DNA from: a virus
Reading direction: 5' to 3' (one strand)
Length of the DNA: 64,000 nucleotides
Virus record (IMG/VR): IMGVR_UViG_3300021134_000001
Coordinates: 1-64,000 of that record
Shown here: positions 25,361 through 64,000 of the stretch, piece after piece
How the letters are laid out: the number at the start of each line of letters is the position of its first letter
Numbering within the stretch: position 1 is the stretch's first letter
Translations under genes and position numbers: made by a program
The notes under the pieces: model-generated
The model's database searches: none
What the model saw: the letters and a program-made list of their open reading frames with translations, nothing else
Told to the model about the DNA's origin: nothing

Positions 25361-25831
25361 ATGACATGTATTATAGGTGATGCAGAGCGGATGATATTAG
25401 TATCAGACTCTCAAGTATCAGATGAAGATTCAAGCACCAAATCTTACGTATGTGAGAAGGTATTTAAACTTGCTGATGGCTCGTTACTCGCTGTAGCTGG
25501 AGATATCCGCTCAGAAGAGAGGGTCATCGAATGGTTTGATAAAGGTTGTCCTAAAGGCGAGAAGCCTGAGATCAAAGAAGAGCACGACTGCGATTTCATG
25601 CGACTTACTGAGGATGGTCTATTTTTATCTGATAAGAGTTTAGAATTCTGGCGTGTAAAGACTCACGATGGTATCGGCTCAGGACAAGCAATTGCTCTTG
25701 GCGCTATGCTCTTAGGTCATACAGCAGAAGAAGCGGTATGGGCTGCTACACAAGTCGATATGCATACTGGCGGTAACGTCATGGTGTATGAGATTGGTAA
25801 GCGTCCAAAGATTTATCATAAAAAGAGCTAA
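25361..25831 (+). CDS. proteasome/HslV-like Ntn-hydrolase
   Basis: 156 aa. Thr follows the initiator Met (MTCIIGD), matching the N-terminal nucleophile of HslV and proteasome beta subunits. The rest follows that fold: ILVSDSQVSD, LADGSLLAVAGD, then IGSGQAIALGAMLLGHTAEE and a closing TGGNVMVYEIG. Such proteins are self-compartmentalising peptidases; several phages carry short versions without an HslU partner. AAGGAA upstream. Proteolytic activity is inferred; none of the usual HslU-contact features can be judged. Confidence 0.78.
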   Translation: MTCIIGDAERMILVSDSQVSDEDSSTKSYVCEKVFKLADGSLLAVAGDIRSEERVIEWFDKGCPKGEKPEIKEEHDCDFMRLTEDGLFLSDKSLEFWRVKTHDGIGSGQAIALGAMLLGHTAEEAVWAATQVDMHTGGNVMVYEIGKRPKIYHKKS

Positions 25832-26173: not shown

Positions 26174-26266
26174 TTGAGAGGCCATTCTAACGAGTGGTCT
26201 CGATTATATTTCTTTGGAAATTCACCCAGGAAATTTTACCTGGCGATTCAAATGCACTTGGAGAAT
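26174..26266 (+). other. structured leader
   Basis: Two hairpins: GAGA...GGCCA with TGGTCTC (about 26175-26200), and CCAGG-AAATTTTA-CCTGG (about 26226-26243). They lie just before the gene at 26267 and could mark RNA processing or mRNA protection. A frame continues through from 26174 but lacks a good start there. Confidence 0.4.
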
Positions 26267-26515
26267 ATGATGACAGTGAACTTTGCAAGACTAAACTGCC
26301 AGACGGGTTGTTGCCTAGATAAGGTGAAGCATCTCTCTGAGCAAATCTTCCATCAGCAGGATGAGATGTATAATAGCCTTGCCGAAGAGAATATTGAGTT
26401 AGGTACTTTCGTAGTTGATGAGATTATGCCTTACTTAGAAGCACGCGCTCAGTCGCACGATCATAGAGCTCAAGATTTAATGGTTAGCTTGATTACCTTA
26501 CTGAGAGGCGTATAA
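26267..26515 (+). CDS. small helical protein
   Basis: 82 aa. Two adjacent ATGs (26267, 26270) follow TTGGAG; either may be used. Helical, with LDKVKHLSEQIFHQQDEMYN. Its stop overlaps the desaturase ATG by one base. Function unknown. Confidence 0.5.
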   Translation: MMTVNFARLNCQTGCCLDKVKHLSEQIFHQQDEMYNSLAEENIELGTFVVDEIMPYLEARAQSHDHRAQDLMVSLITLLRGV

Positions 26516-27219
26516 TGATTGAATTACTCTACTTACTGATAACAACTCATATAACGATCGTCTGCGTAACTTTATATCTACACAGAGGTCAAGCCCATAG
26601 AGGTTTCACGTTTAATCGGTATGTAGAGCACTTCATGCGATTTTGGCTATGGTTGACAACAGGCATGGTGACCAAAGAATGGGTCGCTATACACCGCAAA
26701 CATCACAGCAAATGTGATAAGCAAGGCGATCCGCATTCACCGCACAACGAAGGCATTTGGAAAATTCTGTTTGGTGGCGCCTTTTATTATGCTAGTGCCT
26801 CAACAGATAAGGAAATGGTCAACGCATACGGTGTTGGCACGCCAGACGATTGGATGGAACGCAATATGTATAGTAAATATCAATTAGCAGGAGTAATGCT
26901 GCTATTGGTTATCAATACACTCTTGTTTAATGGATGGGGCATAGTAATATGGCTTATTCAGATGGCATGGATTCCGTTCTGGGCTGCTGGCGTCGTGAAC
27001 GGTCTTGGACATTACATTGGCTACCGCAATACTGAGACAAAAGATTACTCAACGAACTTGAGTCCTTTTGGTATTATCATTGGTGGCGAAGAGCTCCACA
27101 ACAATCATCACGAAAACCCAGCAAATCCCAAGCTAAGCCGTAAATGGTTTGAGTTTGATATTGGATGGATGTGGTATAAAATACTCAATCGATTTGGGTT
27201 GATGAAATTAAGGAATTAA
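26515..27219 (+). CDS. membrane fatty-acid (acyl) desaturase
   Basis: 234 aa. The three His boxes of Delta9-type di-iron desaturases are present: HRGQAH (residues 23-28), HRKHH (60-64) and HNNHH (195-199), plus a conserved NGLGH. Hydrophobic segments near residues 1-20, 40-52, 122-138 and 140-160 fit an inner-membrane protein. It should put a cis double bond in acyl chains using O2 and a reductant. Coupled to the gene before it; IscU follows 2 bases after its stop. It is shorter than most bacterial desaturases but has all metal ligands. Bringing this to infection could alter membrane fluidity; that is inference. Confidence 0.9.
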   Translation: MIELLYLLITTHITIVCVTLYLHRGQAHRGFTFNRYVEHFMRFWLWLTTGMVTKEWVAIHRKHHSKCDKQGDPHSPHNEGIWKILFGGAFYYASASTDKEMVNAYGVGTPDDWMERNMYSKYQLAGVMLLLVINTLLFNGWGIVIWLIQMAWIPFWAAGVVNGLGHYIGYRNTETKDYSTNLSPFGIIIGGEELHNNHHENPANPKLSRKWFEFDIGWMWYKILNRFGLMKLRN

Positions 27220-27220
27220 C

Positions 27221-27604
27221 ATGGCGTATTCAGATAAAGTAATAGATCATTATGAAAATCCTCGCAACGTAGGTTCATTCGATAAAGCTGATCCCACAAT
27301 CGGCACTGGAATGGTTGGTGCACCTGCTTGTGGTGACGTAATGAAACTTCAGATAAAGGTTGAAGATGGTATTATTAGAGACGCTCGTTTTAAGACATAT
27401 GGATGCGGCTCAGCAATTGCGTCAAGCTCGCTCGTCACGGAGTGGGTCAAAGGTAAAACGTTGGCTGAAGCTGGCGCTATTAAAAACAGCGAGATTGCAG
27501 AAGAACTGGCCTTACCTCCAGTAAAAATCCACTGCTCAATCTTAGCGGAAGACGCCGTGAAAGCAGCAATACATGACTACGAGGTAAAATGCAAATGCTC
27601 ATAG
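27221..27604 (+). CDS. iscU: Fe-S cluster assembly scaffold IscU
   Basis: 127 aa, very close to proteobacterial IscU from the first residue (MAYSDKVIDHYENPRNVGSF). Cluster ligands Cys37, Cys62 and Cys105 with Asp39 and His104 are all there, and so is the LPPVK motif (98-102) bound by the HscA chaperone. So it should work with the host IscS/HscAB system. No iscS is visible in the window. It ends in VKCKCS, with two extra cysteines not usual for IscU. It overlaps the A-type carrier gene by 16 bases. Confidence 0.95.
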   Translation: MAYSDKVIDHYENPRNVGSFDKADPTIGTGMVGAPACGDVMKLQIKVEDGIIRDARFKTYGCGSAIASSSLVTEWVKGKTLAEAGAIKNSEIAEELALPPVKIHCSILAEDAVKAAIHDYEVKCKCS

Positions 27605-27900
27605 TTACAGACAGTGCAGCGAATCAAATTAGCGAAGTGCTTACCGACGGCGGTAAATATGTTAGAGCCTTTATTGAAGGCGGAGGTTGCTCGGGATTTA
27701 ATTATGGATTTAGTATTGAAGATGAGAAAGAAGACGATGACTTTGTTATTGGTCAACTTATCGTAGACTCTATGAGTATGCAATACTTTACCGGTGCCAC
27801 GATCGATTACATTAGTGACCGACTAAAGGGCTCGCAGTTTACCATCCATAATCCTAATGCTAAGTCAACATGCGGTTGTGGCAGCTCCTTTGCGGTCTAA
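27589..27900 (+). CDS. A-type Fe-S carrier (IscA/ErpA family)
   Basis: 103 aa with the three A-type cysteines: Cys34 (GGGCSGFNYGF) and the C-terminal CGCG pair (Cys95, Cys97). It should accept clusters from IscU and deliver them to apo-proteins. GAGGT upstream, overlapping IscU in another frame, so both are made together. The AAGGC...SGF region looks closer to ErpA than to IscA, but this is not firm. Likely clients are not the di-iron enzymes next door, which do not use Fe-S clusters. Confidence 0.9.
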   Translation: MQMLIVTDSAANQISEVLTDGGKYVRAFIEGGGCSGFNYGFSIEDEKEDDDFVIGQLIVDSMSMQYFTGATIDYISDRLKGSQFTIHNPNAKSTCGCGSSFAV

Positions 27901-31935: not shown

Positions 31936-32010
31936 TTCTCGATAGTGTTAACGGTAGCACGTCTGTCTCCAAAACAGAAGGTTGCGGTTCGAATCCGTAT
32001 CGGGATGCCA
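31936..32010 (+). tRNA. tRNA-Trp (CCA)
   Basis: 75 bases. Acceptor TTCTCGA/TCGGGAT (six pairs, T-T at position 1:72), D-arm GTGT-TAACGGTA-GCAC, anticodon stem TCTGT/ACAGA with loop CTCCAAA (anticodon CCA), T-arm TGCGG-TTCGAAT-CCGTA, discriminator G and an encoded CCA. The G73 discriminator is typical of tRNA-Trp. The 1:72 mismatch is unusual. Confidence 0.88.
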
Positions 32011-61661: not shown

Positions 61662-62645
61662 TTAGGCAGCCTTGCCCCAAACATCGTTCCATGAGCCAGA
61701 TAAAGCGCCTTTGGCATAATCTGTAACGCGGTTTTCAAAGAAGTTACCATGAACAGGAGCGTTGATCATCTCCTCGACCCACGGCAATGGATTCTTTTTG
61801 CGTTTGAAGATGCCTTTGAGACCTAATGAAATTAAGCGTCTATCCGCAATGTAGCGAATGTATTCCTTAACATCATTAGAAGTCAAGTTGCGCATATCAG
61901 ATCCAGCAAAAGATAGATCGATAAATTTATCCTCTAACTCTACCATCCGTTCGGCGATAGAATAGATTTTTGATTTGAGCTCATCGTTCCAAATCTCAGG
62001 ATTCTCTTTAATATATTCTTTAAACAATCTAATCATAGACTCAGAGTGCATTGTCTCGTCTATTATGCTCCATGTGATTATTTGTCCCATTCCTTTCATA
62101 AGACCGTGGCGAGCAAAATTCAATAACATAATAAATGAGCTAAATAATTGCATACCTTCAGTAAACGCAGAGAATACCGCAATATGTTCAGCTGTAGAGG
62201 CAATTGTACCATTCTTTGAGCTAATCTCTAATACATAATCGTGCTTATCTTTCATCTCCGTATATTCGAGAAAATCGGTATACGTTGATTCCGGCATTCC
62301 AAGAGTTTCAATCAAATGAGAATAAGCTGCAATATGTAATGCTTCACGTGCAGCGAAACCCATTAACATCATTCTAACCTCAGGTTGAGGAAAATGCGGT
62401 AAATAGTTATTTACGTAGCCGCCTGCCACATCAATATCGCCTTGCGTAAAAAAGCGAAAGATATTTGTTAGGAACTGTTTTTCATGTGGTGTAAGCTTTC
62501 TCTTCCAATCCTTAACGTCTTCAGCCATTGGGACTTCAGAATGCATCCAGTGGGATTGTTCGTGTTTTAGCCACGAATCGTACGCCCAAGGATAATTAAA
62601 AGGTTTAAAAGAATTGCGAGTATCTGTAAGTCTATGTTTTGTCAT
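61662..62645 (-). CDS. nrdB: ribonucleotide reductase class Ia, small subunit
   Basis: 327 aa. Iron ligands and tyrosyl radical site in E. coli-type spacing: Asp70, Glu101, His104, Tyr108 (REALHIAAY). A second Glu/His set (EGMQLF, IDETMHSES) completes the di-iron site. It makes the radical that drives nrdA. ATG 62645 overlaps the HNH stop. Supplies dNTPs, including dCDP for the modified-cytosine pathway. Confidence 0.95.
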   Translation of the reverse strand: MTKHRLTDTRNSFKPFNYPWAYDSWLKHEQSHWMHSEVPMAEDVKDWKRKLTPHEKQFLTNIFRFFTQGDIDVAGGYVNNYLPHFPQPEVRMMLMGFAAREALHIAAYSHLIETLGMPESTYTDFLEYTEMKDKHDYVLEISSKNGTIASTAEHIAVFSAFTEGMQLFSSFIMLLNFARHGLMKGMGQIITWSIIDETMHSESMIRLFKEYIKENPEIWNDELKSKIYSIAERMVELEDKFIDLSFAGSDMRNLTSNDVKEYIRYIADRRLISLGLKGIFKRKKNPLPWVEEMINAPVHGNFFENRVTDYAKGALSGSWNDVWGKAA

Positions 62646-63172
62646 AAATCTATCCAAGTATGTTGATAACCGGTCTTGCGCTCATAGGCAGAACGCTTAC
62701 CCCAAGTGGTGATTTTCCCATCATCGATAGACATTACACGTCGATTAGTCGTCTTACACCCGAGCTTACCTGCTTTAGATGTATTTCCTAATTCATGAGA
62801 GCGTTTGCCGCCAAGAGAGGTGCAGTTAGCCCAATGGCCTGATGCTACATTGGCCTTGCCTTGTATTGGGCCTCGAGTTTTTCCACCGATCTTACCAGCT
62901 TTTGAAGAAATACTTTGAAGATGACCAGACTTTACATTAGTAAGACCGCCTTCGATTCTTCCTATACGCTGTGCTTCCCGCTGGGCTTCAGTAATTGTCA
63001 GCTGTCCACTTAAAGTTTTCCAAGCAACATTATCCTGCCATCTACCGTGCGTTTCAAATAAAACTCTATGCGCCTCTGCGTGCTCACTAATAGAAAGCTC
63101 TATTAAATTGCTAGGCTCGTCAGTCCCACCAGCATGTCGCGGGACAATATGGTGAGTATGAGTATGTTTCAT
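62642..63172 (-). CDS. HNH homing endonuclease inserted between nrdA and nrdB
   Basis: 176 aa. HHIVPRHAGGTDEPSNLIEL with a later SEHAEAH forms an HNH site. The C-terminal half has repeated DNA-binding modules (NVKSGHLQSISSKAGK, NVASGHWANCTSLGGK). ATG 63172 follows AAGGA. Paralogue of the 28484 gene. Such genes commonly invade nrd operons of phages. Confidence 0.88.
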   Translation of the reverse strand: MKHTHTHHIVPRHAGGTDEPSNLIELSISEHAEAHRVLFETHGRWQDNVAWKTLSGQLTITEAQREAQRIGRIEGGLTNVKSGHLQSISSKAGKIGGKTRGPIQGKANVASGHWANCTSLGGKRSHELGNTSKAGKLGCKTTNRRVMSIDDGKITTWGKRSAYERKTGYQHTWIDL

Positions 63173-63173
63173 G

Positions 63174-64000
63174 TTATCCTTCACAAGCGAGACACTCGCC
63201 GCCTTCTGTTAAATCGTGTAGGTTAATTTCTTTTATTACTTCACGTTCAATCTTCTTGGAGATTTTATCCGCTTTAGCGATCTTATCAGATCGACAATAG
63301 TACATAGTCTTAAGTCCTTGCTTCCAAGCTTGGAAATGGACCGCATGAATGTATTTGATATGGCTGTCAGGTCTAAAGAACACGTTTAATGACTGCGCTT
63401 GATCGATGAACTCTTGACGATCGGCAGCGTGTTGTACAACCCAACGTTGGTCGATTTCCATGGAAGTCTTAAAGACCTCTTTAGTCCAATCATCTAACCA
63501 TGCTAGGTGTTGAACAGAACCATCATTAGCGATAATACTTGACCACACCTCATCGTACTCGTTAGGCTTTAACTCTTTTACGATTTTATCCAAGTAACGA
63601 TTACGATTGAAATGACTGCCAGATAAAGTATCTTGGCGATAAGCATTTGCCCGATAGGGCTCAATAGAAGGACTAGTGTTGCCCATAAGAATAGAGCTGC
63701 TAGCGTTAGGAGCAATAGCCATAAGATGACTAAATCTATTACCAGTCCCAAGTGCATCTGGGGCTTCTCCTCGACGTGTGCCGAGTTCTTTGTTGGCTTC
63801 ATCAAGTGATGTCCTAACATGTTGGAAGATTTTCTTATTGCGACCTATTGAGAGTGCTGATTCCCAGGGAAGATTATTTCGCTGAAGATAAGCATGCCAA
63901 CCCAAAGCACCGATACCAATGCTGCGCTCACGTATTGCAGAATACTTAGCGCGTTTGATTGAGTCTGGAGCATTATCAATAAAATACTGAAGAACATTGT
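63174..64000 (-). CDS. nrdA: ribonucleotide reductase class Ia, large subunit (partial)
   Basis: C-terminal 275 codons, running off the right edge. SIGIGALGWHAYLQ, NASSSILMGNTSPSIEP and LKTMYYCRSD (the paired Tyr of radical transfer) identify NrdA. It ends in ECLACEG, the redox Cys pair re-reduced by thioredoxin or glutaredoxin (CxxC rather than the E. coli spacing). The catalytic cysteines lie outside the window. Confidence 0.93.
   Translation of the reverse strand, partial: NVLQYFIDNAPDSIKRAKYSAIRERSIGIGALGWHAYLQRNNLPWESALSIGRNKKIFQHVRTSLDEANKELGTRRGEAPDALGTGNRFSHLMAIAPNASSSILMGNTSPSIEPYRANAYRQDTLSGSHFNRNRYLDKIVKELKPNEYDEVWSSIIANDGSVQHLAWLDDWTKEVFKTSMEIDQRWVVQHAADRQEFIDQAQSLNVFFRPDSHIKYIHAVHFQAWKQGLKTMYYCRSDKIAKADKISKKIEREVIKEINLHDLTEGGECLACEG

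Follow-up and report, generated by a model that had tools for sequence, protein, structure and literature searches.

Fatty-acid desaturases carried by phages have already been published from cyanophages, Arctic brine and Lake Baikal, and few phage auxiliary genes are understood as poorly as lipid desaturases; the cyanophage examples were reportedly described by Roitman in 2018. The desaturases of Arctic brine viruses fall into four viral clades with at least four inferred host-to-phage transfers, and were interpreted with a model of membrane fluidity (PMC7300359). T4-like contigs from Lake Baikal carry an acyl-CoA desaturase together with an Fe-S biosynthesis protein, and this desaturase was interpreted as a gene taken from Nitrospira and linked to rTCA (PMC7678222). 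IscU and A-type carriers are themselves known in phages (PMC5332604). Among bacterial enzymes, DesA of P. aeruginosa acts on phospholipids already made, introducing a delta-9 double bond into 16:0 at sn-2 (PMC10634369), and a 394-aa relative from Pseudomonas sp. A3 raised the palmitoleate of E. coli twofold without any partner being supplied (PMC4975390). P. aeruginosa in which desA is strongly overexpressed grows slower and is filamentous (PMC10269440), so the change brought about by desaturation can be physiologically large.

In this study, we analyzed a window of 64,000 nucleotides from an IMG/VR virus contig of 66,823 bases (IMGVR_UViG_3300021134_000001), whose phage genes include a phage-type RNA polymerase, a primase-helicase, PolA, a lambda-like tail and NrdA/NrdB. 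We conclude, with a probability of roughly 75%, that one gene of this window encodes a functional phage membrane desaturase of the DesA type, with the acyl chains of membrane phospholipids as its predicted substrate. The features discussed here are collected in Table 1.

Table 1. Desaturase, neighboring genes and other features of the window
Feature	Position	Strand	Basis or remark
HslV-type peptidase family protein	25361..25831	+	phrog_1040; shortly before the desaturase operon
Upstream phage ORF, 113 aa from TTG (start uncertain)	26174..26515	+	no assigned function
Short DesA-type membrane fatty-acid desaturase, 234 aa	26515..27219	+	ATG start; PF00487, NF049918, His boxes, AlphaFold model
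IscU Fe-S scaffold, 127 aa	27221..27604	+	TIGR01999, 217.8 bits vs cut-off 192.4
ErpA-type (A-type carrier) Fe-S insertion protein	27589..27900	+	NF010147, 120.8 bits vs cut-off 117
Rubrerythrin (diiron, ferritin-like), 150 aa	30309..30761	+	PF02915, E 3.6e-15
Rubredoxin, 43 aa, short loop	30761..30892	+	PF00301, 32.7 bits vs cut-off 23
tRNA-Trp	31936..32010	+	single tRNA gene
NrdB, class I ribonucleotide reductase small subunit	61662..62657	-	PF00268, E 7.5e-76; phrog_86
ORF between nrdB and the C-terminal part of nrdA	62642..63184	-	marginal HNH endonuclease match

The stop codon of the upstream ORF overlaps the desaturase start by one base (TAATG, with GAGAGG upstream), a single base separates the desaturase stop from the iscU ATG, and the iscU and erpA-type frames in turn overlap (27589-27604). 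An earlier sequence-only reading had described the gene as coupled to a phage gene upstream and as part of a phage operon with iscU, and both descriptions agree with what was observed. The arrangement of the desaturase gene is likewise kept in two related phages, L003, with a desaturase 98% identical, and L005 (82%), in which the upstream ORF is 89% and 69% identical, respectively. Compared with the L003 copy, the only close phage copy for which dS could be measured (saturated against the other copies tried), the desaturase gave a dN of 0.009 and a dS of 0.19, a dN/dS of about 0.05. The gene is real, intact and under purifying selection.

The protein belongs to the FA_desaturase family PF00487 (E 1.2e-14; 55.2 bits against a gathering cut-off of 29.7). 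It also matched NF049918, the DesA family fatty acid desaturase, over positions 11-240 of the 385 in the profile (387.7 bits, E 6e-116), just below the curated full-length cut-off of 400 bits as the protein lacks 40% of the profile, and the 234-aa protein is therefore classed as a short relative and not as an equivalog; the same profile matched 29/29 of a viral-plus-bacterial set. The His boxes H23-x4-H28 (HRGQAH), H60RKHH64 and H195NNHH199, with the fourth site N162/H166, reproduce the HxxxxH, HxxHH and HxxHH motifs and the fourth His/Asn site of class III membrane diiron desaturases. In an alignment of 23 viral and 6 bacterial sequences, H23, H28, H60, H63, H64, N162, H166, H195, H198 and H199 were invariant. 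The earlier assignment to membrane desaturases with three intact His boxes is confirmed by the family score and the invariant boxes, although its label, "membrane fatty-acid desaturase", was generic for what is a short DesA form (NF049918 without the C-terminal domain).

A single-sequence search of PDB sequences returned no match, and stearoyl-CoA desaturase 1 (SCD1) was reached by profile only: a profile of viral and bacterial sequences gave SCD1 of mouse and human as matches (E 5.5e-11), pairing HRGQAH/HRLWSH, HRKHH/HRAHH, NGxGH/NSAAH and HNNHH/HNYHH with the mouse protein. The diiron ligands of SCD1, which we take to be nine His and one Asn, all have counterparts in the phage desaturase. 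The best structural match of the AlphaFold2 model (mean pLDDT 80, with residues 181-193 poorly modelled) was again SCD1 (4zyo; Z 18.1, rmsd 2.8 over 221 residues; Foldseek E 5e-6), giving the phage protein the SCD-like fold of class III membrane diiron desaturases.

The viral copies differ from bacterial DesA in length. We took 227 viral loci from three scans, in which some contigs were present more than once and one scan used a bacterial DesA core as query, favouring host-like copies; none of the 226 copies with an intact end ran more than 20 residues past the catalytic core, and they end at about 230-240 aa. Bacterial homologs carry about 140-156 residues beyond the core. Among 110 bacterial copies, 108 extended well beyond it and the two exceptions were shortened or cut (L108, with 102 residues in a shortened MAG frame, and L126, cut by a contig end), so no domain-free bacterial member of DesA was seen. 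The bacterial C-terminal part, helical in a structure model of modest confidence, gave a partial match to PF01610 (ISL3 transposase family) in 20/20 bacterial DesA scanned, for example at residues 293-399 of L083:3941-5143, and this PF01610-like domain was absent from 226/226 viral copies. Since all intact viral copies stop after the core and the bacterial ones extend, the viral copies represent a virus-specific short form of DesA, found in more than one type of phage. Its missing domain raises the question of what the C-terminal domain does in bacterial DesA.

The same observation bears on whether the short enzyme is complete. The presence of the domain in every bacterial homolog scanned, together with the wider fold that AlkB-type hydroxylases share with the model (Z 6.8 and 6.3), would suit an enzyme dependent on the missing domain or on a DesA partner from the host, which by itself would be weak or catalyze a different reaction, such as desaturation at another position or hydroxylation. 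We regard this as rather unlikely, as the diiron ligands and core motifs are all kept in the viral desaturase, the core is still intact in all 226 domain-free viral copies, and the best structural match, SCD1, is also without such a C-terminal domain.

Viral and bacterial copies also separated completely in phylogenetic trees. The split had a support of 100/100 with 45 viral and 42 bacterial rows, and an SH-aLRT of 99 with 84 viral representatives and 42 bacterial DesA; bacterial sampling covered mainly Burkholderiales and other Pseudomonadota, and the trees are unrooted, being compatible with loss of the domain in phages or its gain in bacteria. Outgroup desaturases 28-31% identical placed the root inside the viral copies, a placement that we rejected, with weak inner support of 0-92 and a branch length of 2.0. 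Phylogeny against host desaturases had been proposed as a check in the sequence-only reading, and with viral and bacterial copies on two separate sides, the viral gene was not recently taken from a sampled host.

Members of the family occur often among viral contigs from the environment. One scan of viral contigs found 431 related stretches, and a profile scan found at least 590 stretches encoding relatives. Among 50,697 GenBank phage records there was one distant match, in Pelagibacter phage Mosig (26%), and no cyanophage record matched the desaturase query. The earlier statement that desaturases are rare in phages thus fails for environmental viruses and holds, for this query, for isolated phages. 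Phages have a general habit of picking up host genes, and the desaturase might be imagined as a decaying passenger recently acquired from its host; this is extremely improbable, being refuted, as far as sequence can tell, by the low dN/dS, the invariant active site, the deep viral clade and the hundreds of copies.

Gene neighborhoods were compared across the 84 viral representatives. A gene for an ErpA/IscA-type carrier and/or IscU lay near the desaturase in 14 of them, and in 14/14 within 2 kb, which has a chance of about 3e-6 under an even spread over the flanks examined, a crude estimate for a 2-kb limit set after the data were seen; the flanks examined of the other 70/84 contained no iscU or erpA neighbor. 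The orders found were desaturase-iscU-erpA, iscU-erpA-desaturase, desaturase-erpA and erpA-desaturase, the opposite strand being used too, and parsimony requires 12 changes of the association on the tree. These varied orders and changes point to repeated joining or loss, and not to one fixed inherited block, as the probable origin of the Fe-S linkage. The flanks of 38/84 loci contained nrdB, directly upstream of the desaturase in 20, and in other carriers the desaturase stood near head genes, in some directly after a head protease or major head protein gene, so the desaturase is carried by differently organised phages. In the window phage, NrdB is another diiron enzyme, encoded on the opposite strand and outside the desaturase operon, and the ORF next to nrdB looks like a homing-type insertion.

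Two further genes recurred near the desaturase. A gene of the isocitrate lyase family lay no more than three genes away in L041, L287, L301, L304 and L316 (the copy at L041:3223-4503, + strand, matched PF00463 with E 9e-102). In 24/84 viral loci (L276, L062, L044 and others), an acidic zinc-ribbon-like protein of about 49 aa with a CxxC...CPxCG pattern was encoded one to five genes after the desaturase; it is possibly a redox or zinc protein, and its identification as a rubredoxin was rejected, since its Pfam matches were zinc ribbons below the cut-off.

The window encodes a rubredoxin of its own, overlooked in the sequence-only reading, with two CxxC knuckles (CIVCG and CPDCG). It lies 3.5 kb from the desaturase and beside rubrerythrin, the stop codon of which its start overlaps (TAATG), and the pair is retained in L003 and L005, that is, in three related phages including that of the window. 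A pattern search did not find rubredoxin in most viral relatives, and a non-exhaustive search identified no ferredoxin reductase or rubredoxin reductase in the phage. Rubredoxin is the electron donor of AlkB, a related membrane diiron enzyme, and is therefore a candidate electron donor for the phage desaturase, while rubrerythrin, the classical partner of rubredoxin, is its more obvious partner. For some desaturases, cytochrome b5 is given as the donor (PMC8918992). The recurrent Fe-S neighbors and the phage rubredoxin suggest in concrete terms what might donate electrons to DesA enzymes.

With iscU, erpA, rubrerythrin and rubredoxin on the same strand near the desaturase, and nrdB recurring at viral loci, the desaturase might also be seen as an oxygen or redox sink that, with rubrerythrin and rubredoxin, protects oxygen-sensitive Fe-S or RNR chemistry, the lipid change being a side effect. 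This seems very unlikely to us: nrdB neighbors are simply common phage genes too, and desaturation uses up reducing power and has no known role as an O2 sink. For oxygen removal as the purpose of the gene, which had been suggested earlier, we found nothing beyond the O2 that the reaction uses.

Considering the above results, we have proposed a plausible model built on the preferred reading of a functional DesA-type desaturase. Using O2 and two electrons, the enzyme would introduce a cis double bond at the delta-9 position of saturated acyl chains in the membrane phospholipids of the infected host, with substrate and double-bond position carried over from relatives that are 55-62% identical and have the extra domain. 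Desaturation would fluidise the host membrane during infection, which is plausible by homology, and the phage may benefit from this fluidity. Electrons might come from host ferredoxin or from the phage's own rubredoxin, and IscU and the ErpA-type carrier could, more tentatively, support iron-sulfur (or wider iron-cofactor) proteins of this electron supply. The IscU of the window had its best match, at 88%, within Burkholderiales, the only order searched, so a betaproteobacterial host is only suggested. A wider picture, which we offer as speculative and on balance doubtful, is that phages maintain a pared-down DesA lineage of their own, without a domain that serves regulation or targeting in bacteria, and combine it with iron and electrons supplied by phage-encoded IscU, ErpA-type carrier and rubredoxin to remodel the host membrane during infection. 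As the family is common, separate from sampled bacteria and structurally distinct, it is a clean system in which to test for what reason phages alter the membranes of their hosts.

Within limited open-access literature, we found no report of a C-terminal domain missing throughout the viral copies or of the deep separation of viral DesA, nor of the repeated Fe-S linkage or a rubrerythrin-rubredoxin pair in such a phage. Several described systems are nevertheless close. Cyanophage and Arctic virus desaturases are likewise phage-borne membrane desaturases with His boxes, and the desaturase of a Lake Baikal Nitrospirota phage likewise comes with an Fe-S biosynthesis protein on its T4-like fragment, a likeness drawn by description only (PMC7678222). 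SCD1 (4ymk, 4zyo, 6wf2) has the same fold and the full diiron ligand motifs at 18% identity to the phage desaturase, but is an ER enzyme acting on acyl-CoA with cytochrome b5. The bacterial DesA family (NF049918; P. aeruginosa DesA, PA3FAD9) is 55-62% identical in the core for the bacterial copies compared, with the same His boxes and NGxGH, whereas it carries an extra helical C-terminal domain and the viral form ends at the core.
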